Positions 165 to 22,824 of a DNA stretch of 24,010 bases are shown here, in pieces. Position 1 is the first letter of the stretch, and each line of letters starts with the position of its first letter. The notes below the pieces were generated by a model. The model had not been told where the DNA came from and searched no databases. It saw nothing but the letters and a program-made list of their open reading frames with translations. Both the position numbers and the translations under genes were made by a program. Source of the stretch: a virus; IMG/VR virus record IMGVR_UViG_3300027741_000262, positions 1 through 24,010 of that record; one strand, 5' to 3'.

Positions 165-332
165 AAGGTTTCTTTATATTACTTGTGGTCAATCCTTAAG
201 ACAGAGATTTTATATTCATAGTTATGCTTATTTGCCTTATTTGATTCATAGGGTAATATGGAAAGGATACAGCTAATAGCTGCATTTGTGTACTCTACTG
301 GATTCATAAGACGGTGAGGTGTAAATACTAAT
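165..332. other. Short intergenic stretch, possible small minus-strand ORF
   Basis: No plus-strand gene is visible between the unknown gene and the spanin candidate. A minus-strand frame from ATG at 307 to TAA at 179 would encode 42 residues (begins MNPVEYTNAAIS, ends RIDHK). It has no ribosome binding site and no TAAATA box, so I do not call it as a gene. The last bases contain the TAAATA box of the gene at 333. Confidence 0.4.
322..327 (+). promoter_or_regulatory. TAAATA late-promoter-like box, 5 nt before ATG 333
   Basis: The sequence reads TAAATA-CTAAT-ATG. The box matches the core of the T4 late promoter TATAAATA. A GAGG at 316-319 lies upstream of the box, so it would be missing from an RNA starting about 6 nt after the box. 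Confidence 0.6.
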
Positions 333-914
333 ATGAAAAAATTAACTTTATTGTTTACGCTATTTTTAACTAGTTGTACAGTATACACTGAAAAACAATC
401 AGAAGCTGTGAGTCAAAACGTTTATGCTGTTAACGATTCTTTAGGTAAGGCTCGGGTAGATCTTGCGTATTTTTACTCTAATGAGACAACAAAGTTTATT
501 AAACCACCCAAACATCCTGTAAAAATAAGTTCGATTTATGAAGCAAAGGACGTAGCAAAGAATTCACCTGCTGGTGATAAAACTCGTGTTGTTATAGTTC
601 CAGATGCATATAAGAGCGATAAAGTAGTTGTAGTAGGTTCGTCTGAGTATCAAACTTTATTGAAGGATAGGGAAACCAAGAAGATTCTTGAGCAAGACAA
701 CAAGAACAAGGAATTACAGCTTCAAGCTAATAATAAAGAGCTAACCAAGCAAAAAGAAATGCAGGATAAAATGGTTAAGGATTTGAACTACTATCAGAAG
801 GAAGTATATAAACTTAGACTAAAATGCTTGTGGTTATCTATAGTTATTGTTAGTATGCTCGTTCTTATTGGTGGATATATCTATCTCAGGATGAACAAGT
901 TATTCATGTTTTAG
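333..914 (+). CDS. Candidate unimolecular spanin (lipoprotein with C-terminal TM)
   Basis: This 193-residue protein begins with a lipoprotein signal: MKK, a hydrophobic core, then lipobox L12-T13-S14-C15. Thr at +2 favours outer-membrane sorting. Residues about 110-165 are charged, Gln/Lys/Glu-rich and look like a coiled coil. Residues about 166-186 (CLWLSIVIVSMLVLIGGYIYL) form a single membrane helix, followed by a short basic tail. A lipid anchor at the N-terminus plus a C-terminal inner-membrane helix is the topology of T1 gp11-type u-spanins, which fuse the outer and inner membranes at lysis. The holin and endolysin candidates follow within 1.3 kb, supporting a lysis role. T1-type u-spanins are described as beta-rich, so the coiled coil is unusual. 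An unrelated phage lipoprotein is the alternative. Confidence 0.6.
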   Translation: MKKLTLLFTLFLTSCTVYTEKQSEAVSQNVYAVNDSLGKARVDLAYFYSNETTKFIKPPKHPVKISSIYEAKDVAKNSPAGDKTRVVIVPDAYKSDKVVVVGSSEYQTLLKDRETKKILEQDNKNKELQLQANNKELTKQKEMQDKMVKDLNYYQKEVYKLRLKCLWLSIVIVSMLVLIGGYIYLRMNKLFMF

Positions 915-926
915 TAGAAAAACATA

Positions 927-954
927 TATCCATGATTAAATATATACATGGATA
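927..954. repeat. 8-bp inverted repeat enclosing a TAAATA box and start codon
   Basis: TATCCATG (927-934) and CATGGATA (947-954) pair perfectly. The 12-nt loop contains the TAAATA box (937-942), and the right arm contains ATG 948-950. Read-through RNA could hide this ATG in a stem, whereas an RNA starting at the ATG would lack the left arm. Confidence 0.75.
937..942 (+). promoter_or_regulatory. TAAATA late-promoter-like box, 5 nt before ATG 948
   Basis: The sequence reads TTAAATA-TATAC-ATG, with the same box and spacing as at 322 and 3206. No Shine-Dalgarno is visible between the box and the start codon. Confidence 0.6.
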
Positions 955-1076
955 AATTTATACAAATAATTTCATCTGTAGTTAATTCCGCGTTTGATTG
1001 GATTAACCTGCACCCTAAAACTGCACTAGCTATCGCAATGTTTGCTGTTGGCTTTATTGTTGGAACTCTTTTTTAA
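948..1076 (+). CDS. Small single-pass membrane protein, 42 aa
   Basis: ATG at 948 opens a 42-codon frame ending at TAA 1074-1076. The product begins MDKFIQIISS and ends with a clear hydrophobic helix (ALAIAMFAVGFIVGTLF) preceded by HPK. It lies between the spanin candidate and the holin candidate on the same strand. The TAAATA box exactly 5 nt upstream supports the start. A role in lysis, for example as a holin accessory or antiholin, is inferred only from location and from being a tiny membrane protein. I recognise no family. Confidence 0.6.
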   Translation: MDKFIQIISSVVNSAFDWINLHPKTALAIAMFAVGFIVGTLF

Positions 1077-1093
1077 GGGTTTTTTCTACCATT

Positions 1094-1201
1094 ATGTGCT
1101 ATCCCTATACACGTACGCGCTATCTCTCTGTCCTGATATATATTTATAGCCTTGCCCTAGGCTTTGGTCTTGCAAGAGCTATCCTTTATCATTTAGGATA
1201 A
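1094..1201 (+). CDS. Possible small membrane protein, 35 aa
   Basis: ATG at 1094 to TAA at 1199-1201 encodes 35 residues, beginning MCYPYTRTRYLSV. A hydrophobic stretch (VLIYIYSLALGFGLARAIL) could span a membrane after an Arg-containing start. The stop codon overlaps the TAAATA box of the next gene, and the gap to its ATG is 9 nt. The start is supported only by a weak AAGGG 13 nt upstream. Position in the lysis cassette and hydrophobicity make it plausible, but a chance ORF in intergenic DNA is a real alternative. Confidence 0.35.
   Translation: MCYPYTRTRYLSVLIYIYSLALGFGLARAILYHLG
1180..1200. repeat. 6-bp inverted repeat before the holin candidate
   Basis: TATCCT (1180-1185) and AGGATA (1195-1200) flank a 9-nt spacer. 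The right arm runs into the TAAATA box at 1199-1204. The stem is short and could be chance in AT-rich DNA, but it resembles the arrangement at 927-954. Confidence 0.4.
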
Positions 1202-1204
1202 ATA
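1199..1204 (+). promoter_or_regulatory. TAAATA late-promoter-like box, 6 nt before ATG 1211
   Basis: The sequence reads ATAAATA-TTATTG-ATG. The box has the same core as the 5-nt group with one extra base. An AGG at 1195-1197 lies upstream of the box. Confidence 0.5.
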
Positions 1205-1210
1205 TTATTG

Positions 1211-1654
1211 ATGTGGCAGAATATTGTTAGTATAGGACAGACGGTTAGTGCTTTTCTCACAAACGGAAAAGCACCACCCAATACACCCACTTATTTGGAA
1301 AGACAGATGGAGGACACAAATCATCTATCTTCTAAAAAATTCTTTATTATTTTTAGCTCTTTGTTCATGCTAGCGTTTGTGTTCTATACGAGCGTTGGAT
1401 TACTTTGGGTTATTCCTAGGGCTCCAGAAATTGTTTCAGCTTTCGTCACAATTTTCACAAAGATGATAGAAATCTTTGGTATTATTATTTCCGTTTACCT
1501 CGGTGCTCAGGGGTTAGTTGATATAAGATATAATAGTGCATCTAACGCAAGCACAGAAGGAATTTTAGAACAAAAAGAGGTTAATATTAATGAAACCATA
1601 TTAACTAATAATACAAAAGAAAATGATTATCACATTTCGGAGGTTGAAATATGA
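1211..1654 (+). CDS. Candidate holin, two transmembrane segments
   Basis: ATG 1211 gives 147 residues. An upstream in-frame TTG at 1208 is less likely because the TAAATA box points to 1211. Residues about 44-69 (FFIIFSSLFMLAFVFY...) and about 74-99 (IVSAFVTIF...IFGIIISVYLG) are two strong membrane helices joined by a short loop with Pro and Arg. A soluble N-terminus of about 40 residues and an acidic, Asn-rich C-terminal tail of about 45 residues flank them. The stop overlaps the endolysin start (ATGA, 1651-1654), the classical holin-endolysin arrangement. Two-helix topology fits class II holins, but there is no sequence-level family match that I can name. Another small membrane protein of the lysis operon is the alternative. 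Confidence 0.6.
   Translation: MWQNIVSIGQTVSAFLTNGKAPPNTPTYLERQMEDTNHLSSKKFFIIFSSLFMLAFVFYTSVGLLWVIPRAPEIVSAFVTIFTKMIEIFGIIISVYLGAQGLVDIRYNSASNASTEGILEQKEVNINETILTNNTKENDYHISEVEI
1639..1643 (+). promoter_or_regulatory. Strong Shine-Dalgarno of the endolysin
   Basis: GGAGG lies 7 nt before ATG 1651, inside the end of the holin candidate. It is one of very few good ribosome binding sites in the window and contrasts with the boxed starts, which have none. Confidence 0.8.
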
Positions 1655-2262
1655 AGAAGCCATCACCAAAAGCATTAGCATTAATTTTAGAATATGAAGT
1701 AGGAGGAGGAAAGGCCTATTACGAAAAATATTTAACCAAACCTGAATGGCCAGGCGGTGCAAGTGGATTTACTCTTGGTATTGGTGTTGATTGTGGATAT
1801 TATTCCCCAGCGGAGCTTGAGAAGCTATTTCATTTCCTTCCAAAGGATCAACTCGAAATAGTTAAAGGTGCTTCTGGTAAAACAGGACAGGCTGGTAAGG
1901 CTTACACCCAACAACACAAGAATAGTGGAATAGTTGTTACCTGGGAACAAGCAATAGAGATGTTTGATGACCTTATCTGGTCAAAGTTTGCTCGACTTGC
2001 TGAAAAGGCATTTCCAGGTTTGGATCAACTTTGTGATGATGCTTATGGCGCTATTGTGTCTTTAGTATTCAATAGAGGATCAGCGATGTCTGGTGATAGT
2101 CGCTTAGAGATGAGAAATATTCGTGATCTTGTTCTTAAGAAAGACTACAGAGGAATAGCTAAAGAGCTGCGTAAAATGAAGAGAATTTGGCAAGGAAAAG
2201 GACTGGATGGACTACTTGAAAGACGAGAGGCAGAAGCAAAACTGGTCGAATCCTGTATATGA
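1651..2262 (+). CDS. Endolysin, pesticin/T4-lysozyme-like (GH24-type) muramidase
   Basis: This 203-residue enzyme is predicted to cut the glycan strands of peptidoglycan at lysis. Residues 8-17 (ALALILEYEV) carry the candidate catalytic Glu (E14 or E16). The block GFTLGIGVDCGYY (39-51) holds T41 and D47, whose spacing of 6 matches what I recall for the pesticin catalytic Thr/Asp pair. Further on, FNRGSAMSGDSRLEMR and the C-terminal RREAEAKL block resemble the conserved region around the substrate groove in phage lysozymes. No signal peptide is seen, so it should need a holin for export, in line with the two-TM gene just upstream. It overlaps its neighbours by 4 nt on both sides and has a strong GGAGG. 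The fold assignment is firm; which Glu is catalytic is not. Confidence 0.85.
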   Translation: MKKPSPKALALILEYEVGGGKAYYEKYLTKPEWPGGASGFTLGIGVDCGYYSPAELEKLFHFLPKDQLEIVKGASGKTGQAGKAYTQQHKNSGIVVTWEQAIEMFDDLIWSKFARLAEKAFPGLDQLCDDAYGAIVSLVFNRGSAMSGDSRLEMRNIRDLVLKKDYRGIAKELRKMKRIWQGKGLDGLLERREAEAKLVESCI

Positions 2263-2459
2263 GTTCTATCTACGATACTTTCTTCGATTTTAATCAACCT
2301 TGCCCTGATAAGGTTTCTAATTGTCAGCAGCTTAGAAAACAATATAGTGACGAAATACAGACAGCTCGTAATGCTAATTGCAAATCATGTACAGAGACGA
2401 AGATAAGAGTTAAATATATGGAAATAATTTGGAATGCGTTTGTAACTTCTCTACGCTAA
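2259..2459 (+). CDS. Small Cys-rich protein, possible zinc knuckle
   Basis: This 66-residue protein starts at the ATGA overlap with the endolysin (ATG 2259), so it is probably translated by coupling. Four cysteines at C15, C22, C41 and C44 (CPDKVSNC, then CKSC) could bind one metal ion, with a charged, probably helical segment between the pairs. I recognise no family. It is last in the lysis operon, and its stop overlaps the stop of the convergent metallopeptidase-like gene by 4 nt. A metal-binding role is inferred from the cysteine pattern only. Confidence 0.7.
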   Translation: MSSIYDTFFDFNQPCPDKVSNCQQLRKQYSDEIQTARNANCKSCTETKIRVKYMEIIWNAFVTSLR

Positions 2460-2941
2460 GATATGTGTCTAAAAGCTTTGTAGTATTTATAGAATTTAGA
2501 TACGTGTTGTTTGGCAAACCTTCGTGCATCTACTTCATGTTCATTTCTAAAATAAGCATGTCTGTTATTATTCACATCTTCCGTGCTATACGCTAGCGCT
2601 GTATGACTTATTTTATAAATTCTGTTTTGCATCCAATGTCTAAACTCGTGAAGAAAATCGTCAAATAAAGCTAAATCTCTCTGTTTTTGTGATTTTGGCG
2701 GTGTGCTCGGTTTTACATTAGGTGTATCGCAGAGATGTATTTTATCTGTATAAAATATATACCCACTTTCATTTGCACCTACGTCAACTTGCAAAGTTAG
2801 CGTAATCTTACGGGTTATAGCACCGGGCTCAACTTCAGCAAAGATCATAGATATAGCAGCTCCCATAGCCTTTAAATCATAGTTATTATCATTAAACCAT
2901 TTAACAGATTTTGGTGTTGGTTTAAGGGTAAAGATGTACAT
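2456..2941 (-). CDS. Small zinc metallopeptidase-like protein (HEFRH)
   Basis: From ATG 2941 the product is 161 residues. The frame is open further upstream to 3223, but that part is low-complexity, overlaps the genes at 3000 and 3217, and is rejected. The motif LHEFRHWMQ (97-105) is a canonical HExxH zinc site (H98, E99, H102). NEHEVDARRFA (133-143) downstream offers the third ligand Glu (E136), as in gluzincin-like minimal proteases. The N-terminal half has beta-strand character (ITRKITLTLQVDVG). There is no signal peptide. Such small predicted phage peptidases have no established role; protein maturation or host-protein attack are possibilities only. It is alone on its strand among plus-strand genes. 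Confidence 0.75.
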   Translation of the reverse strand: MYIFTLKPTPKSVKWFNDNNYDLKAMGAAISMIFAEVEPGAITRKITLTLQVDVGANESGYIFYTDKIHLCDTPNVKPSTPPKSQKQRDLALFDDFLHEFRHWMQNRIYKISHTALAYSTEDVNNNRHAYFRNEHEVDARRFAKQHVSKFYKYYKAFRHIS

Positions 2942-2947
2942 ACTATG

Positions 2948-2975: not shown

Positions 2976-2999
2976 ATAACATATAATATGGAGAATACA

Positions 3000-3182: not shown

Positions 3183-3205
3183 TAAGCTTCGGTCGGTAAT
3201 ACAAT

Positions 3206-3211
3206 TAAATA
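3206..3211 (+). promoter_or_regulatory. TAAATA late-promoter-like box, 5 nt before ATG 3217
   Basis: The sequence reads TTAAATA-TATGT-ATG. A 5-bp inverted repeat (ATACA 3199-3203, TGTAT 3214-3218) encloses it. The spacing selects ATG 3217 over the out-of-frame ATG at 3213, which would encode only 13 residues. Confidence 0.6.
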
Positions 3212-3216
3212 TATGT

Positions 3217-3459: not shown

Positions 3460-4139
3460 TGTTAGTTTTTGATGCGATTTCCCATACTTATAAAAACGAA
3501 TTCACAGGTGAGTTTTACACTTCAGCTTCGACGCTTCTTGGAAAATTTAAAAAACCATTTGACGGTGATGTTATTGCTGAGCGTGTTGCAAAAAAAAGAC
3601 GGTGTACTGTAGAGGAGGTTAAAGCGGAATGGAAAAAAGCTAATGATGATAGTAAGGTATATGGAACTGAGATACACGCGGTCATCGAGCGGTTTAATAA
3701 GTACAATACATACGACGTAGAGTATGTTGATATTATCCAGGCTTATATCGATCTTAACCTTATTAATAGTAAGTGCGATAATCTACTGATCGAGCAACAA
3801 GTTTACAATCACGAGTATAAAATAGCAGGTACCGCGGATATTATTCGTCTTGAGGATCGTGGTGGTTTCAGTGTTTTTGATTTGAAGACTAATAAAAAAT
3901 TTAATCTCTATAGTCAATATGGTGATAGCTTACTATCACCGGTAGATCATTTATCGGCTTGTGAATATTCAAATTACGCGCTTCAACTATCGCTTTATGC
4001 CTATATGTATCAAGGTCTAACAGGCAGACGTGTTAATCAATTGGGAATTATATATTACGACAGAAACACTAACGCGTTTACACATTACCCAGTAAACTAT
4101 ATGAAACACGAAATCAAAGCAATTCTAAATACTCTATGA
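3459..4139 (+). CDS. PD-(D/E)XK nuclease, RecB/Cas4-like exonuclease
   Basis: This 226-residue protein shows the ordered motifs of RecB-family PD-(D/E)XK nucleases. GTEIHAVIE (69-77) carries the motif I His. E112 (IEQQVY) is followed by GTADII (124-129) with D127, then FDLKTNK (140-146) with the D141-x-K143 metal/catalytic pair, and finally ALQLSLYAYM (174-183) with the conserved Gln and Tyr. It therefore probably degrades or trims DNA with Mg2+. No four-Cys iron-sulphur pattern like that of Cas4 is present, and no cas genes are near. Roles in recombination, host-DNA breakdown or end processing are possible. It overlaps the next gene by 4 nt (ATGA), so the two are probably co-translated. Confidence 0.85.
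   Translation: MLVFDAISHTYKNEFTGEFYTSASTLLGKFKKPFDGDVIAERVAKKRRCTVEEVKAEWKKANDDSKVYGTEIHAVIERFNKYNTYDVEYVDIIQAYIDLNLINSKCDNLLIEQQVYNHEYKIAGTADIIRLEDRGGFSVFDLKTNKKFNLYSQYGDSLLSPVDHLSACEYSNYALQLSLYAYMYQGLTGRRVNQLGIIYYDRNTNAFTHYPVNYMKHEIKAILNTL
3921..3940. repeat. Perfect 8-bp inverted repeat inside the nuclease gene
   Basis: GGTGATAG (3921-3928), loop CTTA, CTATCACC (3933-3940). It is a compact stem with a four-base loop in the coding region between the catalytic Lys motif and the conserved Gln motif. No U-run follows. Confidence 0.7.
4126..4131 (+). promoter_or_regulatory. TAAATA box, 4 nt before ATG 4136
   Basis: The sequence reads CTAAATA-CTCT-ATG, overlapping the last codons of the nuclease. 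It could be an internal late promoter or a coding coincidence, since the start also overlaps the upstream stop. Confidence 0.35.
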
Positions 4140-4612: not shown

Positions 4613-4637
4613 TAAATAATAATATGAAGCTTATTAC
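4609..4637. repeat. 7-bp inverted repeat enclosing the start of the gene at 4624
   Basis: GTAATAA (4609-4615) and TTATTAC (4631-4637) pair perfectly, with ATG 4624 in the 15-nt loop. The left arm overlaps the TAAATA box. Confidence 0.5.
4613..4618 (+). promoter_or_regulatory. TAAATA late-promoter-like box, 5 nt before ATG 4624
   Basis: The sequence reads ATAAATA-ATAAT-ATG, in an 11-nt intergenic gap, with no Shine-Dalgarno. Confidence 0.6.
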
Positions 4638-8102: not shown

Positions 8103-8108
8103 TATTTA
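8103..8108 (-). promoter_or_regulatory. TAAATA late-promoter-like box, 5 nt before ATG 8097
   Basis: On the minus strand it reads TTAAATA-CTAAT-ATG, identical from TAAATA through ATG to the box at 322-327 in front of the spanin candidate on the other strand. It lies in an 18-nt gap between the two giant structural genes. Confidence 0.6.
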
Positions 8109-11100: not shown

Positions 11101-11655
11101 AAGGGAACGCAGGTGATCCCATTTATCTGTTATATCTAAAGGTGTATAATTATAATCTCCTCTCGCGCCTGATGCGTATAAATTAATAGTATAGCCGGTG
11201 GCGCTTAGGGCAGAATAGTTTTGCCAGCTACTATATACGTCAATATATAAAGGGTCAAGCAATCTACCTGCTGGCACGTCGTATATGAGCCCCTTATAGT
11301 CACGGAAAGATATTTGCGAGGAGATATAGTCGTATACCTGAATGGTTCTAGTATAAAGACTATCATATGCGTTACCGTAATTGTCGTAAACAGTTAACGT
11401 CACAGTGTATTGACCTGGCCATTTATAAACGTGTTTCGGTCTTAAGTCGGTTGAAAAAGAACCATCGCCGAAATCCCAACGTATATTTTTATTCGATATG
11501 CTATAAATTGAGTTCGCTGAAAGAAGCGAGGATGTAGTAAAATCCGGTACAAATTGTAAGGGTGTGTTTTCTAGTGTAAATGCAGATAATGTATTCGTAC
11601 CAGTAAAATCTAGTACGTCAAAATAAACATATGTATTGTTAACATTGTATGACAT
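8116..11655 (-). CDS. PKD plus beta-propeller baseplate protein, 1179 aa
   Basis: Residues about 57-107 form a PKD domain (WDFGDGS at 60-66, then KHVYKWPGQYTVTLTVYD). After a beta-rich linker, residues about 490-815 hold repeated blades with the NHL/Vgb-type signature. VWVT or a variant (NVWIA, NAWVA, YIWV) recurs near 583, 647, 697, 751 and 799, preceded by an Asp-containing turn (LDGDE, VDRNK, VDGHQ). The C-terminal 350 residues (from about 830, including DWNGYKWINKYA and VANFVNNRSDVDKVNVDALLSL) are a separate, more helical region likely to anchor the protein in the baseplate. The gene follows gp6-like with a 1-nt overlap (TAATG), the place of gp7 in T4. The propeller probably binds or displays rather than catalyses. 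Surface binding is inferred, not shown. Confidence 0.75.
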   Translation of the reverse strand: MSYNVNNTYVYFDVLDFTGTNTLSAFTLENTPLQFVPDFTTSSLLSANSIYSISNKNIRWDFGDGSFSTDLRPKHVYKWPGQYTVTLTVYDNYGNAYDSLYTRTIQVYDYISSQISFRDYKGLIYDVPAGRLLDPLYIDVYSSWQNYSALSATGYTINLYASGARGDYNYTPLDITDKWDHLRSLSRFYRQNITSTGDIEYLEIESLTATQTEIYVNIQNNQIQQCSQIASGSVLAGITGTCQVWYTDDRPGNLTTESNPVFLFATIDSSKFNDAYTQKMNTFEYVDYPIQGLQNLDPAVFPSVKIRYNVADRLSITTTGIDGEGTLSTTKFNIPSISWQDTEIPYVIKFKDKDGFTTKNYPPLSSSITKNTASQPSLYYDVQTSIITLSGNTYVPLDGVTYYEDFVPGAPQSLGAFYKGYFIPTQSSENCVLTASVTVLEPAHYQKDALVGWVAIPQYNSALRILRQEYYNGMNGSKYITLANNDSTLSVNDNRNIYAIAVSPAGTEGSNNDYQTWFADAINDKIVKYDMYGNLLSDYYTLSATPTLFNNQIVSIDYRSTATNNILPAAAPNNITLDGDENVWVTLLESGTAIKIDTSIGAVTFTASPTAANYSYTLSSDYISQDGFAGENLFLPSSIDTDVENNVWIAYSHPNFNYLIKYRGNNNYTTAAETITEVQFPDGITPDEICVDRNKNVWVTAVNHNNQGSTFDSFNDYLYKFNTNGDLIDGFPLSGFKQIGNITVDGHQNAWVAHNKETITKIDGITNKRADYIAGRGTNKTNYICSIGGLTCDTSNYIWVINNFDKKLYIIDGDKPPRDFFEYITSVDLEYPAAGLPGIPPGQYSDGMQEFQAIGDWNGYKWINKYATRASTTRTITGASNIFNIHPSSGKFSISKVNEGWDAAGYYNSLRFQESLLDKEVFFDQFLGVILGGLSAQPYELGKTVHEKVANFVNNRSDVDKVNVDALLSLCNELTLDFEEYNYLYPPQLKRLVDLLSIKQRILWGTQNKYALNFDNRGTTFPNDEYGINLNSKIDILTGIISPYGIPIVAKELFSNTYKIINTNYIPDIEDLITISGSITGIPLSAYTPDWGWGLIAPDNITGIDISVYYEFYSYNPVFNNMYYDNIIDWDSDLTTLTPQNSSYTTWSADEGIMQNILSYELTKGFRLFTSAANITYNS

Positions 11656-13514
11656 TAGTACTCTCTAGTCAGTGTTTGTATGGAAGGTGTTACAACTGCT
11701 ATCTTTTTAGCAAAATCAAGACTGTTTTTTAGATATGGAAATTTAAAAAACGGTAATTTTATATCTTGTGTATAAATGTTAATATCATCGTATGGGTAGA
11801 CTGGATTGTATAATAAAAGACTGATACCAGGCACGGTGTAGAGTTGTCCGTTAATTGTGCGTTGTGTTGATACTCCTGTTACACCTTCAATCGCTAGAAT
11901 TTGATTTGTCAAATCTGTGATGCTAACAAGTAGCCCGAGGTTGTCTTTCGTTGTAGCAAAATAGTTTGTAATTGTTGAGGCGACTAATTGACTTAAAAGA
12001 GTTGCGTCTTTTTTTGAGGTAACGGACCGATTTATGACGAGAGTTGTTTCATCTCCAATGCTTGGTGTGAGTTGCTCTGTGGTTGCATGTACGCCTAGAT
12101 TCACTTCTACATATACAGGGTCATTAACAATCAGCTCAGCGGTCGTTAATTTTACATCTTGCAGGTCATTAAGGATGAGCTGCTTCTGCGCGCTATTTAA
12201 ATAATTAGTTCTCGTAGTGAGAGAGGATGTTTTTACAAGCTTAGGTACAGCGTAGATATAGACGTTGTTAAAGTTGCTTGTGTCGGCAAATTTTACTTGA
12301 TTGAATAGTACGCGAGATTCTGTATTTGGCTTAGTTACACCAAGATCAAAGTAATATTTTAAATGGCCTGATACATAATCCCAGTTATTTACAACCTGAG
12401 TTGAGGCTATAATATTACTATAATTTTTATTAATGTAATTAGTAAAATCATCGGAAGTGATTAAACGGTATTGGCTTCTAAATGTGTTAGGTGCATTTGC
12501 TTTAATGCTTTCAACGCTTTCTCGTTCAACAAATTTTGTAGAAGTTTCTATATTTGAGAATGTAATGTTTTTAGCTTCACTGGTAGTGATAAGTTTTACA
12601 TTAGGGGAAATCGTGTCAGCTTTAATTGAATTAAATCTAGCAGTACTAAAGAAAAAGAGAGACTTATTATCTAGAAGACCAGGTCCTATTTCTCCTTGTG
12701 AGCCGTTAGACTGGATATAATAAACAGCAACCTCTGACCCTATGTCTAGTTGCTTACCTGTGATATTATTGCCAAACTTAATTTCGTATCTGCCGTTTTC
12801 ATTTAATCGTATTTCGTATTTTGTAGCGTTAGATTTTTCTAAAAACAGCGATTGTGTTGATGTCCATTTTTCCCACTTTGAGCCTGCAGCGCTACTCCTG
12901 ACATACACGTCGATGTTAAAATGGTCGAGTATTACGTTAATTCCGTTTGTATCGACAACTACTAGGGTAAGAATCTCGAAAGGCGCGCCAGTTGCAAAAT
13001 AAGATGGATATTCAGTGTATGAGCCTTGATATAATAAATTGTTGTCCTGTAGGTCGGTTAATGTTGCTTGTTCGGCTGTTGGTTTTGTAAAGGTTATGTC
13101 GGAATTAAATGAGTATGCTGCACCATTAATATTAAAATAAGAGTAGCGAGGAATTGTATAGGTATTTGCTGCTAAATTAGAGCTGCCTTTCGCCTTAAAA
13201 GGTAAAATTGCTGTTTGTGATCCAATAGGTTTGTAGCCTATCAACTTAACAATTTTGTTAATATTTTCGTAGAGCTCTGCAGTTGTAAAAGTGCTCTCTG
13301 CACTTGTTCTGTTTAAATAAAATAATAGAACGTGATATGAGTAAGCAATAATATCAATTATTGACGAAAGATTGCTTCCCTCAAAGCTTTGATCTGTGTA
13401 GTTTCCGGTGGAGTTTAAGCGTTTAATTATTAAGTTCTTTAAACTCAGGGCATCGAAAGCAGCGTACCCGTCAACAGGTAAATTAAAGTCGTTATATTGA
13501 TTATTAGTAGCCAT
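11655..13514 (-). CDS. Baseplate wedge protein, T4 gp6-like (baseplate J family)
   Basis: The 619-residue product has the hallmark N-terminal region of gp6/gpJ-type wedge proteins: SFEGSNLSSIIDIIAYSYHV, then FYLNRTSAESTFTTAEL, then IVKLIGYKPIG (about 43-98). The middle contains the J-type beta region (YEIRLNENGRYEIKFGNNITGKQ about 231-253, then VAVYYI), and the C-terminal third carries the conserved LVNQ-type helix (LTNQILAIEGVTGVST). In T4 this protein forms the ring of wedge dimers around the hub. It lies directly after the gp25-like gene (4-nt gap), as expected. Length is slightly below T4 gp6 (660). Confidence 0.9.
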   Translation of the reverse strand: MATNNQYNDFNLPVDGYAAFDALSLKNLIIKRLNSTGNYTDQSFEGSNLSSIIDIIAYSYHVLLFYLNRTSAESTFTTAELYENINKIVKLIGYKPIGSQTAILPFKAKGSSNLAANTYTIPRYSYFNINGAAYSFNSDITFTKPTAEQATLTDLQDNNLLYQGSYTEYPSYFATGAPFEILTLVVVDTNGINVILDHFNIDVYVRSSAAGSKWEKWTSTQSLFLEKSNATKYEIRLNENGRYEIKFGNNITGKQLDIGSEVAVYYIQSNGSQGEIGPGLLDNKSLFFFSTARFNSIKADTISPNVKLITTSEAKNITFSNIETSTKFVERESVESIKANAPNTFRSQYRLITSDDFTNYINKNYSNIIASTQVVNNWDYVSGHLKYYFDLGVTKPNTESRVLFNQVKFADTSNFNNVYIYAVPKLVKTSSLTTRTNYLNSAQKQLILNDLQDVKLTTAELIVNDPVYVEVNLGVHATTEQLTPSIGDETTLVINRSVTSKKDATLLSQLVASTITNYFATTKDNLGLLVSITDLTNQILAIEGVTGVSTQRTINGQLYTVPGISLLLYNPVYPYDDINIYTQDIKLPFFKFPYLKNSLDFAKKIAVVTPSIQTLTREY

Positions 13515-13518
13515 GAGA

Positions 13519-14025
13519 TTAAGAAATAAAATTAAATCCTGAAGTACTTAATGTACCAGCAAGTTGAAAGCTAGAATTCTTAAGTGTGGGTATGGTAAAT
13601 ACTATCGTTATTGAGTATTGTTGATTTTCTGGCTCAGCCATGACTCGTACCTTTTTGAGAGTTACTCTCGGTTCGAACGTCGTAACACCGCTTACAATTT
13701 GATTACCGATAAGGTTCGCTATATCCTCATCACACACTTCAAACACATATTGCATTAAATTTAATCCAAAATATGGATTTAAAATTTTTTGTCCAGGAAT
13801 GGTTGTGAATAAATTTTTAAGAGAGTTTTTTATAGCTCCTATGTCATAATCAGAAATAATATCAATAATTTCTTTATCTCTTAAAAGCTCATTACTCTGT
13901 GTATATGCACCGAACGGTGATTTACCGTAAATAGGAGTGAAATCGAGATGTAAGTCACTGTATGTATAGCCGCTATCAAGAATTGCGGGTTTCTCGGTAA
14001 GAGATTGTAGTTTAATAGATGCCAC
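13519..14025 (-). CDS. Baseplate wedge protein, T4 gp25/W-like
   Basis: GTG at 14025 is the start. A TAAATA box lies exactly 5 nt upstream, and the ATG two bases earlier (14027) is out of frame. The 168-residue product contains the gp25 signature NSLKNLFTTIPGQKILNPYF (67-86) followed by GLNLMQYVFE, and later the conserved FEPRV (117-121). In T4-like tails this protein joins the wedge to the sheath and nucleates sheath assembly. It is first in the unit gp25-like, gp6-like, propeller protein. Confidence 0.92.
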   Translation of the reverse strand: MASIKLQSLTEKPAILDSGYTYSDLHLDFTPIYGKSPFGAYTQSNELLRDKEIIDIISDYDIGAIKNSLKNLFTTIPGQKILNPYFGLNLMQYVFEVCDEDIANLIGNQIVSGVTTFEPRVTLKKVRVMAEPENQQYSITIVFTIPTLKNSSFQLAGTLSTSGFNFIS

Positions 14026-14030: not shown

Positions 14031-14036
14031 TATTTA
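14031..14036 (-). promoter_or_regulatory. TAAATA late-promoter-like box, 5 nt before GTG 14025
   Basis: The minus strand reads TATAAATA-TATAT-GTG, the full 8-base T4 late consensus. It decides the GTG start of the gp25-like gene. Confidence 0.65.
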
Positions 14037-14082
14037 TAAAGGTTTCTTGGTTTCAATAATTGGTTTATCAATACAAGGACAA

Positions 14083-14088
14083 TAAATA
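14083..14088 (+). promoter_or_regulatory. TAAATA box, 7 nt before ATG 14096
   Basis: The sequence reads ATAAATA-ATAATAG-ATG. It lies in the 70-bp divergent region (14026-14095) shared with the minus-strand box at 14031-14036. The same region also has an imperfect direct repeat of TTGGTTT. Confidence 0.5.
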
Positions 14089-14095: not shown

Positions 14096-14695
14096 ATGAA
14101 AAAGCGTTTTTTAGCTATATATGAAAGTTGGTTAACAGCAAGCAACCATAGCGGTTTTCTTGTAGGTAACATTGTCAAGTTCAAAGATAATGCATTAAAG
14201 CATGATTTCCTTAAAGCACTATCTGATGAAGCAGTTAATGCGATTAAAGCGCTTGTAGCAGGTAAGGGTACTCTTAGAATCACAAATGTAGTTAACAAGT
14301 ATCCAGCAGGAATGGCAGCTAGTAACCCTGACGACTTTGGTCCTGATTTTAGTATTGAGGTTAGTGAAGATATAGGTGGTGGTCGTATTATGAATAGTGC
14401 TGTTGTACATCCCGGTATGATTCAAAAGATCGATACAACGCCAAATCTCGAGCCTGTTCCTGATAAAAACAAATATAAGAACAAAGTTACTATTAAACCT
14501 GAAGTTGTAAAGGATGAAGCTGAAGAGGTTCCTTTTTATTCACCAGCGCGTACGCGCACATCTGATCTTGGTAATGGTAAGCTTAGTAGCGGTGACCGTT
14601 CTTTAAAGAATGTCAATATAAAGATTCCTGCTACACCTAACGTCACTTGTAAAGATCCTGCTTCTTATACTGCGGACTATTTACCTAAGGCTTAA
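14096..14695 (+). CDS. Unknown phage protein, 199 aa
   Basis: The N-terminal 110 residues look like a compact domain: ESWLTASNHSGFLVGNIVKF, a helix (FLKALSDEAVNAIKAL), then RITNVVNKYPAGM and a beta strand with IEVSEDIGGG. The C-terminal 90 residues are Lys/Pro/Asp-rich and probably disordered (EPVPDKNKYKNKVTIKPEV). I recognise no family. The gene is alone on the plus strand between the baseplate genes and the clamp loader. Its last 11 bases overlap the end of the clamp-loader gene. The GFLVGNIVKF block hints at a small beta-barrel (SH3/KOW-like) fold, which is a guess. Confidence 0.75.
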   Translation: MKKRFLAIYESWLTASNHSGFLVGNIVKFKDNALKHDFLKALSDEAVNAIKALVAGKGTLRITNVVNKYPAGMAASNPDDFGPDFSIEVSEDIGGGRIMNSAVVHPGMIQKIDTTPNLEPVPDKNKYKNKVTIKPEVVKDEAEEVPFYSPARTRTSDLGNGKLSSGDRSLKNVNIKIPATPNVTCKDPASYTADYLPKA

Positions 14696-15617
14696 TATCT
14701 GAAAGCTGAATTAGACAAGCGTAGCAATTAAGCTCCTGGTCAACGCAAAACGCTGAACGGTAGAGATATTCAGATACCGTAAGAAGATAATATCTCTTGA
14801 GATCAGGATTTGTTTCTGCTTCATCGATATAATTAAAGAGATTGCGTAAAAGTAAAACATAATCTGAATTAAATGTATGTTCGCTTTCAATTAACGCTTT
14901 TCGTAACGTCTCAATATTCCTCTTCTTTACCTCATTAAAGATAAGCTCTAAGACTTTATTATTCTTTGTATCAGCTAAAATAAGTTTACCGGTCGATGAA
15001 AACTTTTGTAGTTCGTTAATACATTTACGCAAGTCAGGGTAAGTACCTTTGACGAATTCAACAAACCTAACCTTCTGACTATCTTCTAAAGCAATACCCT
15101 CCTTCTTAAGGATAGTAGCGCATCTCTTTACAGCGATATCCAAAGGTGGTGTTAAATCAAAACTCTGACAGCGACTCTGCAGAGCTGGAATAATTCTATA
15201 CCGATAGTTCGCTGTAAGAATAAATCTTGTAATGCCGGCGAACTCTTCCATAGTGTTTCTCAATGCGCGTTGTGCATCAATAGAAAGACCATCTGTCTCA
15301 TCGAGAATAATAACCTTAATCTTACCATCGATACTCATTGTCTGAGCAAAACTCATTACCTTTGTACGGATAGTGTCGATACCGTTTTCATCAGAAGCAT
15401 TAATATAAAGGTACTGACAACCAAGGATATCATTAACGATAATCTTAGCGCTCGATGTTTTACCAATACCCGGTCCTCCAGTAAAGAGTAAATTAGGAAT
15501 CTCCTCTTTTACTTTATAAGAGTTTAATACGTCGCGTATTTCCGGTGTACAGATAAAATCTTCAAGAGTATGCGGACGGTATTTTTCGCACCAAATATTT
15601 GAAAAATCGTAACTCAT
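14685..15617 (-). CDS. Clamp-loader ATPase, T4 gp44/RFC small-subunit-like
   Basis: The chosen start is ATG 15617 (310 residues), one base after the dUTPase stop (TAAGATG). The in-frame ATG at 15653 would add 12 atypical residues inside the dUTPase gene. W9-C-E-K-Y-R-P is the RFC box entry. GGPGIGKT (47-54) is Walker A, VIILDETD (102-109) is Walker B, LTANYRYRII (134-143) contains sensor 1, and LQSRC (146-150) carries the arginine finger of clamp loaders. It therefore loads the sliding clamp during phage DNA replication. T4 gp44 is 319 residues. The small partner (gp62) and the clamp (gp45) are not in the window. Confidence 0.93.
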   Translation of the reverse strand: MSYDFSNIWCEKYRPHTLEDFICTPEIRDVLNSYKVKEEIPNLLFTGGPGIGKTSSAKIIVNDILGCQYLYINASDENGIDTIRTKVMSFAQTMSIDGKIKVIILDETDGLSIDAQRALRNTMEEFAGITRFILTANYRYRIIPALQSRCQSFDLTPPLDIAVKRCATILKKEGIALEDSQKVRFVEFVKGTYPDLRKCINELQKFSSTGKLILADTKNNKVLELIFNEVKKRNIETLRKALIESEHTFNSDYVLLLRNLFNYIDEAETNPDLKRYYLLTVSEYLYRSAFCVDQELNCYACLIQLSDIKP

Positions 15618-15618
15618 C

Positions 15619-16071
15619 TTATCGTCCGGAGCTACCAAATCCTTTTTCACCACGATCTGTACTCTCTACCTTACCCCACTCAACTGGCATATGAATGCTA
15701 AAGTAAATGACGAACTGCGCAATACGATCACCAGCCTTAACAGGGTAATCGACATCAGTACTATTATAGAGCTTGACACCTGCATCACCTCTATAAGCGT
15801 TATCAATAATACCGGGGTGAGCTGATACACCATGCTTAAATCCAAGTCCTGATCGACTCTCAACCTTAATCCAATATCCTTCAGGGATGTAAGCAAACTT
15901 AAGACCGACGCCTACAACAGCGCTTCCACGAGCAGGAATTACAACATCCTCGACACTATAAACATCATAGCCAGTATCTGATTCGTGATTCTTTGTAGGT
16001 AGCTTAGCGAGGTCGTGCGTCTTTTCAAACTTTAAAATAGGGAGATACTGAATATTTGGATCTGTAGACAT
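15619..16071 (-). CDS. dut: Deoxyuridine 5'-triphosphate nucleotidohydrolase (dUTPase)
   Basis: All five motifs of trimeric dUTPases are present in 150 residues: SDTGYDVYS (31-39), ESRSGLGFKHGV (71-82), GIIDNAYRGD (87-96), AGDRIAQFVI (113-122) and the C-terminal arm DRGEKGFGSSGR (139-150). The enzyme converts dUTP to dUMP and pyrophosphate, which supplies dTMP precursors and keeps uracil out of phage DNA. It appears complete and active. It is followed after one base by the clamp-loader gene, so nucleotide and replication functions are co-expressed. Confidence 0.96.
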   Translation of the reverse strand: MSTDPNIQYLPILKFEKTHDLAKLPTKNHESDTGYDVYSVEDVVIPARGSAVVGVGLKFAYIPEGYWIKVESRSGLGFKHGVSAHPGIIDNAYRGDAGVKLYNSTDVDYPVKAGDRIAQFVIYFSIHMPVEWGKVESTDRGEKGFGSSGR

Positions 16072-16079: not shown

Positions 16080-16107
16080 ATAATACTACACCTTTAATTA
16101 AAATCAA
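16080..16107 (-). promoter_or_regulatory. Possible sigma70-like promoter of the dUTPase gene
   Basis: On the minus strand TTGATT, a 16-bp spacer and TATTAT precede ATG 16071. Transcription would start about 2 nt before the ATG. No TAAATA box is present, in line with early expression of a replication gene. Both hexamers are imperfect. Confidence 0.35.
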
Positions 16108-16130
16108 CCGGAGATAAGTATATAGACAAT

Positions 16131-19471: not shown

Positions 19472-21142
19472 TTAGAATCCGTTAGCTATACGCCCGTCGT
19501 CTGTAGTGTCATCGAGTTGTTTAAAGTTATATGTTTTAATGCAGTGAAGGTCGTTATAATATTCGCTACCGTTGAATACATGTTTGACTTCTATTATCAT
19601 ATAGATACCCAATAATTTATTGTCAAACTTACTAAAAGGTACAGCACCGTCACGATCTATGCCAATAAAGCAACCAGCTTGCCGATGTGTCATGCCGGGT
19701 AATCTAAATGACATTAGATTATTCATCATTATGCTATCGTAAAGGAATTTATTTCTACCAAAGTTTAATCGCTGGTCGGGATCTTGCTCTACTACAGAGA
19801 ATACATTCTGTATATTTTTATTTGTGTATCTCAATTGGCCTGGTGCAAAATTCGGATAAGCAGGGTATTGGTTTGAGCTGTTCATCTTATTAACGTAGTT
19901 TTTTTGATACGTTTTCATAGACTGCTCGACTCCGCTTCTCTCTATATCAATATTAAACTGTTTATTTTGATAGTCATAGCTATGTACAAAATGAGGTACT
20001 AGTTTTTGTTGAGAATATAGACCAGCCATATTGTCAAACGAAAAACTCTTTACAGTTCCAAAACGTTCAAAATATAATCCGCCTGCAGGCGTAAAGTAAG
20101 CCTCTGCCGGGCTCTTTCCGTCTTGTTGCGTATAACCACCAATTTTTACTGTCTCAACATATAGATTGCCCGGTGCATCAACACCAGATGTTTGACTATA
20201 TGCCTGATCAAAGGATTGCTTTACACTTCCAAGCGAAAACTGTCGCGGATACCTTTCAAGATGAAGAAAGCACTGATCAAAATCACTTTCTGCATTAGAG
20301 ACGTGTCTTGAGAGAATATAATTAACACAGTCAATTGCTTTGTAGTTAGCAGGCGTTGAGAAGAAAATCTTTGTACCTCCAATATCCCATTTAGTGTTTT
20401 GCTTGTTTTTTTCTGATTGAGGTAAATTTGCGGTGTCTTGATTATTGTTGGTTGAATCAGAGAACGAAATAGAATATCCCTCATTATCAGGAAATGCTGC
20501 TTTTAAAAATTCTTTTAGCGCAATTCCGGTTTCAATGCCCGTATCACCGCTTGGTTCACCGGTTGTATTTGTATTGCCTGTAGAATCGTATAAGTTTGGA
20601 ATTGTAGCGGTTGAAAAAGGTACATTTTTTTCTAAAAGAAGCTGATAGTAGAGGTCCCAAAAATATAGCTTTTTATATTTTTGATCAGGTTGATCACTTA
20701 CAATATCTTCACTATTGTAAATAGCAAAATCGTAACTCATACGGTACAAGGCTTGACCTTCTTCCGACCCCATATTATCAACAGCTGTGCTATCAAGCTG
20801 TGGCATTATATCAATATGCAAAATATCTCTAGCTTCCCCACGGAATATATATCCCATAGAGATGTCACCATTCGTATTACCGGCGTTATTGTAGTAGGTA
20901 GGTGTGTTGATATCCGTAGATGGTGTATCGCGTTCAATTATATCAAACGAATTATCAATAACGATTGATCCTTGTTGATAAAAATTATTAAATGTATCTT
21001 CTATACTAAGTGATTTTATTGCCGATGGTTTGATGTCCTGTGTTCTGGACTGCTCTCCAGCTGCATTAATCAACGTAACTTTAAAAATATAGTTATTGTT
21101 GTTGATCTTATGTGTATATTGATCATCAAGAGGGGTATTCAT
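19472..21142 (-). CDS. Baseplate hub protein, gp27-like
   Basis: The 556-residue protein starts one base after the gp53-like stop (TAATATG). The N-terminal part is beta-rich with KVTLINAAGEQ and SIEDTFNNFYQQGSIVIDN (about 46-64), typical of the first tube-like barrel of hub proteins. The C-terminal part has the block LLGIYMIIEVKHVFNGSEYY (about 511-530) followed by NDLHCIKTY, a pattern found near the end of gp27/gpD-type hubs. These proteins form the trimeric ring that connects tail tube and puncturing device. The position between gp53-like and the lytic protein fits. Sequence similarity to T4 gp27 itself is not obvious, so the exact family is less sure. Confidence 0.75.
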   Translation of the reverse strand: MNTPLDDQYTHKINNNNYIFKVTLINAAGEQSRTQDIKPSAIKSLSIEDTFNNFYQQGSIVIDNSFDIIERDTPSTDINTPTYYNNAGNTNGDISMGYIFRGEARDILHIDIMPQLDSTAVDNMGSEEGQALYRMSYDFAIYNSEDIVSDQPDQKYKKLYFWDLYYQLLLEKNVPFSTATIPNLYDSTGNTNTTGEPSGDTGIETGIALKEFLKAAFPDNEGYSISFSDSTNNNQDTANLPQSEKNKQNTKWDIGGTKIFFSTPANYKAIDCVNYILSRHVSNAESDFDQCFLHLERYPRQFSLGSVKQSFDQAYSQTSGVDAPGNLYVETVKIGGYTQQDGKSPAEAYFTPAGGLYFERFGTVKSFSFDNMAGLYSQQKLVPHFVHSYDYQNKQFNIDIERSGVEQSMKTYQKNYVNKMNSSNQYPAYPNFAPGQLRYTNKNIQNVFSVVEQDPDQRLNFGRNKFLYDSIMMNNLMSFRLPGMTHRQAGCFIGIDRDGAVPFSKFDNKLLGIYMIIEVKHVFNGSEYYNDLHCIKTYNFKQLDDTTDDGRIANGF

Positions 21143-21143
21143 A

Positions 21144-21506
21144 TTATGTTAATGCGCTGTTAATCTCTTTTAATACACCTGGTAGATACTCTGGTTTAAT
21201 AAGCTTTATTACTGTACCAGTCTTTGGCAATTCAAAAGGATTGAAAATTTTATTTGTTAATAAAATTAACCACCAGAGCTCAATTGTTTGGTATGCGTTA
21301 AAACTAACCATCGTCCATGGTTCAGATTTTTTAATAGTTAGATAAAAAATAGCGCGTTCGTCAAGCTTGTCGGGCAAAAAAACAGATTGCAGTAAGTTAT
21401 AAAAATACTGATTGTCTACTGTCTGATATAGTTTGAATATTCTCTCGTAACGATATACATTCAAATCAGGAAGCATTGTTACACTGTTCTGATACTGTCC
21501 GTCCAT
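21144..21506 (-). CDS. Baseplate wedge protein, gp53-like
   Basis: The 120-residue protein has the gp53 pattern: an aromatic-rich N-terminal half, then IKKSEPWTMVSFNAYQT, the helix IELWWLILLTNKIFNPFEL (about 75-93), a Gly-containing turn (PKTGTVIKLIKPEYL) and a final helix. In T4 gp53 joins adjacent wedges around the hub. T4 gp53 is longer (196 residues), so this is a compact form. It is the first gene of the unit gp53-like, hub, lytic protein, 384-residue protein, with a TAAATA box 7 nt upstream. Confidence 0.75.
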   Translation of the reverse strand: MDGQYQNSVTMLPDLNVYRYERIFKLYQTVDNQYFYNLLQSVFLPDKLDERAIFYLTIKKSEPWTMVSFNAYQTIELWWLILLTNKIFNPFELPKTGTVIKLIKPEYLPGVLKEINSALT

Positions 21507-21513
21507 ATATAGA

Positions 21514-21519
21514 TATTTA
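21514..21519 (-). promoter_or_regulatory. TAAATA box, 7 nt before ATG 21506
   Basis: The minus strand reads TTAAATA-TCTATAT-ATG, within a 35-nt gap after the tube-cap candidate gene. A short repeat AGATA/TATCT surrounds it. Confidence 0.5.
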
Positions 21520-21541
21520 ACTATCTTTTATACTTTTGAAA

Positions 21542-22813
21542 CTATATACCAAAATTAACTGCTGAAGGGTGTGTTGCTGCGTAAAAAGGACTACCTGCTG
21601 CAGCAGCTGATGGTAGTGACGACGTGCCTACCTCACTAACCCCAGATTCAACGATATTACGCACACCTATCATGTGTTGCATGAAGTTTTTAGAATTAGC
21701 TGTCATGCTCTTTAAAGATATTCTTACTCTATAAGCATCTGGTATAATAGCTTTCATTGCTGTTGATCCTGATGAAGAACCAAGAAATTGACCCGCTACG
21801 TCACCAGCGAATGTTGAAGATGTGTTAGTAGTTGGTACATTAATCGTCATTTCTCTACGGGACCCCATAAAATCAATTGTAATTGATGTAACGTAACAAA
21901 ACGGAAAGAACTTAACACCTGGTACTTCAACCATGTAAATAACAGGTTGATCGACGGTATTTTGTCCTGTTTTCCCAGGACGATTTTGATATACAAGTAA
22001 ATATAAGAGTTGCCAATTTCTAACAACATCATCGTAAGTGACTTCTCCTGTATTAATAAGAGGAAATTCTATATTAATATCTTCACCTTCTGTTGGGTAG
22101 TTATAAAATTTTGTCTTTTCAATATATGTAATTTGTGTAGGGTTATTAATAGAGGCGGTTACTTCTGCAGCTTCTGTTACCATACCGATAAATGGAGCAA
22201 CAGCGTCACCGATGCCGCCGACTTTACCGGATTCTGAGAATGCATTCATTTGACTTGCGTGATTGTTGTCAAAATATGGTAAAACATAAACCCAGTTAGT
22301 AGGATCGGTAAGATAGAGATTTCTATATGGTCTTAAAGGATCAGATCCTCGTATTGTAGGGTTATTATCATCACCAAAATTATCTGTAACCATTTTAGCT
22401 GCGGAGTCAATTACTTCGGGTGCCTTTTCAGCAGCACCTTTTAATTTAGAAACAAAATTTTTGACGTTAGGACTGTTTGTTTTTGAAGCGTACTGTTCAA
22501 TATTTGCAAACGTTTGAGATATATTATTAGACGTTTGACCAAGGGAATACTTTAATTGACTAACGAGTGCATTAGTCCTTAATTTCATTTCAGTGAGAAT
22601 TATTTTTGGCACCTCCTGTCGACCTTCATTAAGTTTTGAATATGTCCAGTAAAAATCTTTTACTACATTAATCTGTGTTGTGGGTCTTGTTACACCTGTA
22701 CTTGCTGTACTGGCAATACCAACGGGCTTAAGCTCAGGAAGCGCGACACTTGTAGAGGTTGTTCCGCCTATACCAGGATTTGCATTTTGAAAGCCCCATA
22801 AAAAATTTGCCAT
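21542..22813 (-). CDS. Candidate tail-tube cap/junction protein (gp48/gp54-like)
   Basis: In the 423-residue protein, residues 90-145 are helical, and LYLTDPTNWVYVLPYFDNN (167-185) begins the folded part. The block PVIYMVEVPGVKFFPFCYVT (290-309), followed by SITIDFMGSRRE, is beta-rich and resembles tail-tube and tube-initiator folds seen in many myoviruses. NWQLLYLLVYQNRPG (266-280) precedes it. The C-terminus is Ala/Ser-rich. The gene lies between the tape-measure candidate and gp53-like, matching the T4 order 29-48-54 and the baseplate-to-tube connection. The start ATG 22813 is supported by the TAAATA box 5 nt upstream. A tail-tube paralogue is the alternative. Confidence 0.6.
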   Translation of the reverse strand: MANFLWGFQNANPGIGGTTSTSVALPELKPVGIASTASTGVTRPTTQINVVKDFYWTYSKLNEGRQEVPKIILTEMKLRTNALVSQLKYSLGQTSNNISQTFANIEQYASKTNSPNVKNFVSKLKGAAEKAPEVIDSAAKMVTDNFGDDNNPTIRGSDPLRPYRNLYLTDPTNWVYVLPYFDNNHASQMNAFSESGKVGGIGDAVAPFIGMVTEAAEVTASINNPTQITYIEKTKFYNYPTEGEDINIEFPLINTGEVTYDDVVRNWQLLYLLVYQNRPGKTGQNTVDQPVIYMVEVPGVKFFPFCYVTSITIDFMGSRREMTINVPTTNTSSTFAGDVAGQFLGSSSGSTAMKAIIPDAYRVRISLKSMTANSKNFMQHMIGVRNIVESGVSEVGTSSLPSAAAAGSPFYAATHPSAVNFGI

Positions 22814-22818
22814 AACAA

Positions 22819-22824
22819 TATTTA
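22819..22824 (-). promoter_or_regulatory. TAAATA late-promoter-like box, 5 nt before ATG 22813
   Basis: The minus strand reads TTAAATA-TTGTT-ATG, in the 22-nt gap after the tape-measure candidate. Confidence 0.6.

Follow-up and report, generated by a model that had tools for sequence, protein, structure and literature searches.

Predicted leaderless early and late mRNAs from promoters abutting start codons in an uncultured T4-like phage lineage

Can a late promoter of the T4 type stand so close to a gene that its transcripts would begin with the start codon? The question is raised by a 24,010-base virus record (IMG/VR record IMGVR_UViG_3300027741_000262; the whole of this stretch is called the window here), which carries T4-type baseplate, clamp loader and dUTPase genes (PHROG matches) and in which the hexamer TAAATA repeatedly ends five nucleotides (nt) before a start codon. 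T4 late transcription is the textbook case of a separate promoter and ribosome site; here this promoter type is apparently fused to the start codon across related genomes. An initial annotation of the window had predicted from this spacing that the late mRNAs are leaderless. In silico, the spacing of the boxes and the presence of the late sigma factor gp55 in relatives support that prediction, which had missed a second gene set, early genes included, with a sigma70-type promoter. We consider it very likely that T4-type late promoters abut start codons in this lineage and would give rise to leaderless or near-leaderless late mRNAs, and that the same applies to the sigma70-type gene set.

Placement of TAAATA before start codons

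The initial annotation had listed eleven TAAATA boxes in the window and had noted that the purine runs at genes 333 and 1211 lie upstream of the box; every box was found in the sequence at its given position, and both purine runs are placed as described. In what follows, the gap is the number of nt between the end of the box (or of a -10 element) and the start codon, ORF stands for open reading frame, and orthologue counts refer to non-identical loci, with the window's own near-identical copy included. The boxes, with one variant box added last, are as follows.

322–327, plus strand: late-type box TAAATA, gap 5 to ATG 333 (ORF of 193 amino acids); box in 1/2 orthologues
937–942, plus strand: late-type box TAAATA, gap 5 to ATG 948 (short ORF, under the 60-amino-acid limit of the ORF list); 2/2 orthologues
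1199–1204, plus strand: late-type box TAAATA, gap 6 to ATG 1211; 2/2 orthologues
3206–3211, plus strand: late-type box TAAATA, gap 5 to ATG 3217; box in 9/9 orthologues
4126–4131, plus strand: TAAATA, gap 4 to ATG 4136, within the upstream ORF, a doubtful promoter; 2/13 orthologues
4613–4618, plus strand: late-type box TAAATA, gap 5 to ATG 4624 (phrog_858, starvation-inducible regulator); gaps 5–7 in 8/14 orthologues
8103–8108, minus strand: late-type box TAAATA, gap 5 to ATG 8097 (ORF of 1034 amino acids, no PHROG match); gap 5 in 40/43 orthologues, gaps 5–7 in 42/43
14031–14038, minus strand: late-type box TATAAATA (TAAATA at 14031–14036), gap 5 to GTG 14025 (gp25-type baseplate wedge); gap 5 in 62/68 orthologues
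14083–14088, plus strand: divergent late-type box TAAATA, gap 7 to ATG 14096; gaps 5–7 in 56/62 orthologues, gap 6 in 37 of these
21514–21519, minus strand: late-type box TAAATA, gap 7 to ATG 21506 (tail or baseplate protein, weak PHROG matches); gaps 5–7 in 19/42 orthologues
22819–22824, minus strand: late-type box TAAATA, gap 5 to ATG 22813 (ORF of 423 amino acids, no PHROG match); gap 5 in 10/12 orthologues
16115–16120, plus strand: variant box TAAGTA, gap 10 to ATG 16131; TAAATA at gap 5–7 instead in 31/51 orthologues

Lying inside an upstream ORF and recurring in few orthologues, the box before 4136 is the weakest of the eleven. The hexamer as such is not enriched in the window (41 copies against a shuffle mean of 53); it is the placement of TAAATA that constitutes the signal. 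Placement was scored on 24 starts, chosen by us from the ORF list together with 948 and 1211 from the initial annotation. TAAATA stands at gap 5 before 7 of the 24 and at gaps 4–7 before 11. In 23,810 rotations these two counts averaged 0.020 and 0.081 and reached at most 2 and 3, respectively. Without starts 948 and 1211 the counts are 6/22 at gap 5 and 9/22 at gaps 4–7, and under rotation each reaches at most 2.

Orthologues of the gp25-type gene start with GTG in 48 cases and with ATG in 15 (n = 68), and the box nonetheless lies at gap 5 in 62. Among orthologues of 3217 the aligned codon is not ATG in 7/9, the ATG usually being 3 nt further downstream. Operon-internal or early genes lack TAAATA (0/35 orthologues at gene 11655, 0/39 at 16071), and 6/45 gp6 orthologues carry it, at gap 6–7.

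The best IMG/VR match is a contig of 47 kb whose gp6 is identical to that of the window (G001, a longer copy of the window; G and L numbers are our own handles). A gp6 relative is encoded in 348 of 350 candidate IMG/VR stretches, with at least 80 loci on contigs of 4 to 158 kb. A protein search found 1,499 GenBank phage records with a gp6 relative, all below 60% identity and at 22–26% among the matches listed, and the DNA polymerase of one long relative, G002, reaches at most ~31% identity to isolates among the matches listed (including C48C1, BUCT-ZZ01, cyanophages, Pelagibacter phage Mosig and phiM12). Judged by these identities, the lineage is one of uncultured T4-like phages without a close isolate in the searched collection.

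Spacing was then counted in six long relatives (G002–G007; 119–158 kb, 833,219 bases in total), which were taken in 20 kb pieces, so that genes at the cuts were lost. ORFs were called mechanically from the most upstream ATG with a minimum of 70 amino acids, giving 880. When all hexamers were ranked at all gaps before these starts, TAAATA at gap 5 came out on top (81 vs 3.9 expected), followed by its own register-mate and by TAAATA at gap 6 (55 vs 4.4). A count made independently of genes gave 138 occurrences of TAAATA-N5-ATG against a background of 20.3 per gap; the genome-wide scan that the initial annotation had proposed thus revealed a spacing far tighter than chance. TAAATA-N5-GTG occurs 48 times vs 10.6 (12 at gap 6), and neither TTG (17 vs 24.5) nor CTG (7 vs 14.8) is enriched at this distance. 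Codons at gap 5 also tend to open frames of at least 60 codons (ATG 113/137, GTG 41/47), as compared with 50/181 and 16/91 at gaps 20–29; for TTG the figures are 4/17 and 31/262. Over all 23 related records, two of which (G011 and G016) resemble near-duplicates, the pattern TAAATANNNNNATG was found 340 times vs 56 for its reverse, and forward exceeded reversed in every record.

The bases around the box are consistent with initiation on the start codon. In the 161 late-class ORFs (gaps 4–7) the base preceding TAAATA is mostly A or T, position -13 is A in 52% and T in 31%, and no TTG signal is seen at -36 to -30, where the 87 ORFs of the sigma70 class described below show one by selection. According to a passage in one published account, the T4 late box TATAAATA spans -13 to -6 (PMC1524935). 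With the box so placed, a gap of 5 would make the start codon's first base +1. The restriction of the enrichment to ATG and GTG is what a requirement for a purine at +1, the first base of the codon, would predict. A pyrimidine precedes the start codon (-1) in 71 of the 81 gap-5 genes, while base -2 is a pyrimidine in only 33; a pyrimidine–purine step is the usual context of bacterial start sites.

A second promoter class and the late sigma factor

The same hexamer screen revealed two further elements, TATAAT at gap 6 (34 vs 2.6) and TTGATT at gap 28 (20 vs 1.3). By its sequence, TTGATT-N16/17-TATAAT ending ~6 nt before ATG is a sigma70-type promoter with a predicted +1 on the ATG. Promoters of this type, as defined by a sigma70 rule, stand at gaps 4–7 before 87 of the 880 ORFs, as compared with 14, 34, 11, 9, 8 and 4 in other gap windows, and their commonest form combines gap 6 with a spacer of 16 (40/87). 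No ORF fits both classes (0/880), in part a consequence of the definitions, since a single hexamer cannot belong to the two at once.

In the window, such a promoter precedes the dUTPase gene. It is listed here with the PHROG-matched genes to which the text refers.

16080–16107, minus strand: sigma70-type promoter predicted from sequence, TTGATT (16102–16107), N16, TATTAT (16080–16085), gap 8 to ATG 16071 (dUTPase, then gp44 clamp loader)
15619–16071, minus strand: dUTPase gene (phrog_135, 3.3e-43)
14685–15653, minus strand: gp44-type clamp loader gene (phrog_168, 4.1e-76)
13519–14025, minus strand: gp25-type baseplate wedge gene (phrog_261, 5.8e-24)
11655–13514, minus strand: gp6-type baseplate wedge gene, operon-internal, without a box in the window (phrog_219, 3.6e-45)

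Among dUTPase orthologues the sigma70-type promoter is present at gap 4–9 in 47/48, with gap 6 in 26, and TAAATA in 0/48. Window genes 2988 and 3459, which are boxless, have a sigma70-type promoter at gaps 5–13 in 5/11 and 8/13 of their orthologues. Orthologues thus preserve both promoter types. As a separate observation on the clamp loader, the gp44 match in G001 (L102) is split over two ORFs by one stop codon, reflecting either a polymorphism or a sequencing error, and ORF 14685–15653 of the window is intact.

The two classes segregate by function. We assigned late and early labels to T4 homologues according to what we take to be their timing in T4. Scored by their own box, late homologues comprise 25 with TAAATA, none with a sigma70-type promoter and 33 with neither; the early ones comprise 0, 5 and 49 (Fisher 7e-6). 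Scored by the head of the run in which they lie, the late homologues number 35, 0 and 23 unassigned, and the early ones 1 (nrdA), 19 and 34 unassigned (Fisher 7e-14). uvsW, which was counted as early, has neither box in any instance.

A factor that could read the late boxes was found as well. gp55, the late sigma (phrog_234), is encoded in 13/23 related records, including all of G002–G007; the gp55-like sigma that the initial annotation proposed to look for is therefore present in the lineage, the window's own genome being available as fragments without gp55. In G002 (L108:9758–10357), ~57 residues of gp55 precede the PHROG match, which ends at position 131 of 181 and leaves the C-terminal part unrecognisable by this match. 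In T4 this part of gp55 is the clamp-binding end.

Translation signals and alternative explanations

In the relatives, Shine-Dalgarno 4-mers precede 110/880 ORFs vs 86/880 in a control stretch. With the same caller, the counts were 132/205 in T4, 91/163 in HTVC008M, 92/164 in Mosig, 86/170 in C48C1, 125/271 in phiM12 and 52/158 in Syn9; the controls ranged from 16 to 36. Broken down by class under wider limits, the motif is found before 3/180 late-box genes (control 13), 7/136 sigma70 genes (7) and 100/564 others (66). Box genes thus have no Shine-Dalgarno motif beyond chance, and the remaining genes are weak users of it.

The translation apparatus encoded by these phages was also inspected. 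A tRNA with anticodon CAT occurs in four of the six long relatives, as five genes (two in G003):

L105:10751–10825: tRNA-CAT gene
L112:14018–14094: tRNA-CAT gene
L119:17490–17564, minus strand: tRNA-CAT gene
L127:14398–14472, minus strand: tRNA-CAT gene
L134:5602–5674, minus strand: tRNA-CAT gene

Initiator tRNAs are marked by an acceptor mismatch and by three G:C pairs adjoining the anticodon loop. An initiator role, which would have suited leaderless initiation, was rejected for the CAT tRNAs: the acceptor stem is fully paired in 4/5 (the exception, the G003 gene at L112, carries a T.T mismatch), and the three G:C pairs are absent from all five. They are possibly elongator methionine (Met) or Ile2 tRNAs. 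A PF00551 formyltransferase of ~190 amino acids is encoded in 6/23 records, namely G002–G007 (G002:34887–35312 and counterparts). It was rejected as a Met-tRNA formyltransferase, the G002 protein (189 amino acids) scoring best with PurN, below the cut-off (49 of 150 bits), and lower with Fmt (39.5 of 201.5 bits); by these scores it is probably PurN-like and not a Met-tRNA formyltransferase.

Could the box act in translation and not as a promoter, forming an A/U-rich leader to which ribosomes are recruited independently of Shine-Dalgarno pairing? The near-background level of Shine-Dalgarno motifs in the relatives and the translation-like distance of the box would fit such a role. However, in the other gene set the corresponding position is occupied by a different element, accompanied by a -35 at promoter spacing, several operon-internal or early genes have no box (0/35 at 11655, 0/39 at 16071), TTG starts are not enriched, and the box matches the T4 late promoter in a lineage where gp55 is present; we regard a translation signal as improbable. 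Marginally less probable still is that the boxes are T4-type late promoters of ordinary leaders, the near ATG or GTG being unused and the real starts lying further downstream, as might be expected from T4, Syn9, C48C1 and phiM12, in which most TAAATA boxes lie ~20–35 nt upstream of the start. Against this, orthologues align from residue 1–3 with an equal box gap (62/68 for the gp25-type gene and 40/43 for 8097), and a sharp gap-5 peak limited to ATG and GTG would be left unexplained. In-frame ATG or GTG codons at codons 5–30 with a Shine-Dalgarno 4-mer are, moreover, rare (8/161 late, 4/87 sigma70 and 21/632 other ORFs), and a hidden start of this kind within the first 30 codons was rejected as rare in all classes.

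We allow somewhat more, while still judging it unlikely, for promoters that are real but secondary, with most late mRNA arising by readthrough from upstream and leaderless translation playing a minor part. Window boxes 8103, 21514 and 22819 indeed lie ~7 to 22 nt past the stop of a co-directional gene, whereas no co-directional gene lies upstream of the divergent pair 14031/14083, whose two boxes are conserved (gap 5 in 62/68; gaps 5–7 in 56/62); the box genes, too, are nearly devoid of Shine-Dalgarno motifs (3/180) for a readthrough message. That the pattern arose by chance or from gene calling in an AT-rich genome is already refuted. AT-rich DNA contains many copies of TAAATA, and the TAA of a gap-6 box is an in-frame stop, which biases a caller that takes the most upstream ATG. 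In a gap-5 box, by contrast, the TAA falls outside the reading frame, and a stop-codon artefact was rejected for the main peak. The peak is present in the gene-independent counts, and T4, of equal G+C (0.353 vs 0.357), has 0/205 ORFs with TAAATA at gap 5.

Several observations weigh against leaderless transcription as the preferred explanation. The relatives are of common ancestry and their counts are non-independent events. Gaps vary, with ATG also peaking at gap 6 (73) and gap 7 (37) vs 20.3 and sigma70-type gaps ranging over 4–9, and some mRNAs would therefore have short leaders. The gap-6 genes (n = 55) have T at -1 in 28, A in 19, G in 7 and C in 1, with no clean pyrimidine–purine step. 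Some boxes lie between co-directional genes, and readthrough there would therefore give leadered mRNA. Neither box was found at the called start of 82/112 T4 homologues, in part because calling was confined to ATG starts and to ORFs of at least 70 amino acids. A small raw excess of TAAATA-N5-ATG is seen in T4 as well (10 vs 4.8), though not at gene starts (0/205). As for the late factors, no gp55 was found in the fragments of the window's own genome, that is, in G001 or among the scanned ORFs of the window. A gp33 profile that finds the protein in all five comparison isolates finds it in 0/6 long relatives, and among 43 small-protein groups (ATG ORFs of at least 60 amino acids) gp33 reached at most 2.5% probability. 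gp45 is very divergent: a custom profile finds a relative in 5/6 (hhalign 91.6%), and the PHROG model for gp45, phrog_223, matched 0/23 records, the controls likewise being without a match.

Other features of these genomes bear on the host and on side subjects. WhiB, which we take to be an actinobacterial marker, is found in 0/23 related records, and a TAnnTTTG element, presumably of Bacteroidota type, is not enriched in the relatives. A gp6 profile search of genome contigs returned no relative, and a QueF search returned ten loci of 36–45% identity from several phyla. With 59 of 141 ORFs scanned, G002 was found to encode QueF, GTP cyclohydrolase I, PTPS, DUF366 and GMP reductase (L106:15369–18303 and elsewhere), a gene set that suggests 7-deazaguanine chemistry and perhaps DNA modification. 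G003 carries a transfer-messenger RNA gene (L112:14109–14520; Rfam 86.9 bits) whose possible tag frame looks unusually long, and our reading of the tag is uncertain. Group I introns (Rfam RF00028) are present at L112:10870–11106 and L134:3576–3807, both on the minus strand.

A proposed scheme and its relation to known systems

We propose that host RNA polymerase, together with the gp55-like sigma of the phage, presumably reads TAAATA preceded by A or T, and that transcription would begin at the start codon's first base or a few nt upstream. The late mRNAs would then be leaderless or nearly so and be translated from the 5' AUG or GUG without a Shine-Dalgarno sequence. Genes with a sigma70-type promoter, early ones included, would follow the same leaderless scheme, their -10 element ending ~6 nt before the ATG. 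Genes inside runs, which are mostly boxless, are probably translated by coupling with weak use of Shine-Dalgarno motifs.

More broadly, we lean towards the view that a widespread T4-like lineage has fused both its early sigma70-type and its late gp55-type promoters to the start codon, so that transcripts of both temporal classes would be leaderless. Start codon and transcription start would form one joint element, the choice of promoter fixing both timing and mode of translation, and late transcription may run without a recognisable gp33. We read leaderless early and late transcription, as predicted here, as a new variant of the T4 programme. With the box-to-start rule, the sequence of an uncultured T4-like phage would, in addition, show which of its genes are late and which are early.

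To our knowledge, no T4-type late promoter that is fused to a start codon has been reported, and a literature search, whose coverage left out most subscription journals, found no paper combining 'leaderless' and 'TATAAATA'. The Thermus phage phiYS40 reportedly has many leaderless middle and late transcripts. A passing remark in the phage AR9 paper states that phage transcripts are often leaderless, and the same text gives leaders of 26–491 nt for AR9 itself (PMC5312081). In Deinococcus-Thermus, according to a part of one study, a -10 motif adjoining the ORF yields leaderless mRNA, as was demonstrated experimentally (PMC12340547). As far as that part describes it, the arrangement resembles ours in having a -10 element at a fixed short distance from the ORF; it differs in being bacterial, with a housekeeping-like -10, whereas the lineage has two phage promoter classes, one presumably read by a phage sigma.

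The late promoters of T4 share with those of the lineage the TAAATA core, the lack of a visible -35, the position before T4 late-gene homologues and the presence of gp55. T4 boxes, however, lie mostly ~21–29 nt from the ATG, whereas those of the lineage lie at 5–7 nt without a Shine-Dalgarno sequence, and in place of the T4 set of gp55, gp33 and gp45 the lineage has a very divergent gp45 and no gp33 that our searches found. TAAATA at gap 4–7 precedes 0/205 ORFs in T4, 0/158 in Syn9, 0/170 in C48C1 and 0/271 in phiM12, and the sigma70 rule at these gaps picks out 0, 0, 3 and 0 ORFs, respectively.

Cultured Pelagibacter phages come closest. HTVC008M has TAAATA at gap 5 before 10/163 ORFs, including homologues of T4 genes 2, 3, 4 and 25, and Mosig before 5/164, including homologues of genes 2 and 3. 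Genes 2 and 4 of HTVC008M are back-to-back, with boxes a few nt apart (L158:18914–18945). These phages differ from the lineage in that gap-5 boxes are a minority, and in HTVC008M the box of genes 8 and 21 lies 18–19 nt away, with a Shine-Dalgarno-like run in between. For pelagimyophages, a section of one report states that late-promoter prediction by earlier methods failed (PMC7029224). From T4 through the mixed state of the Pelagibacter phages to the lineage described here, these viruses may offer a natural series in which to ask by what route and for what reason a virus gives up leaders, how leaderless mRNA attracts ribosomes during infection, and whether gp33 is dispensable.

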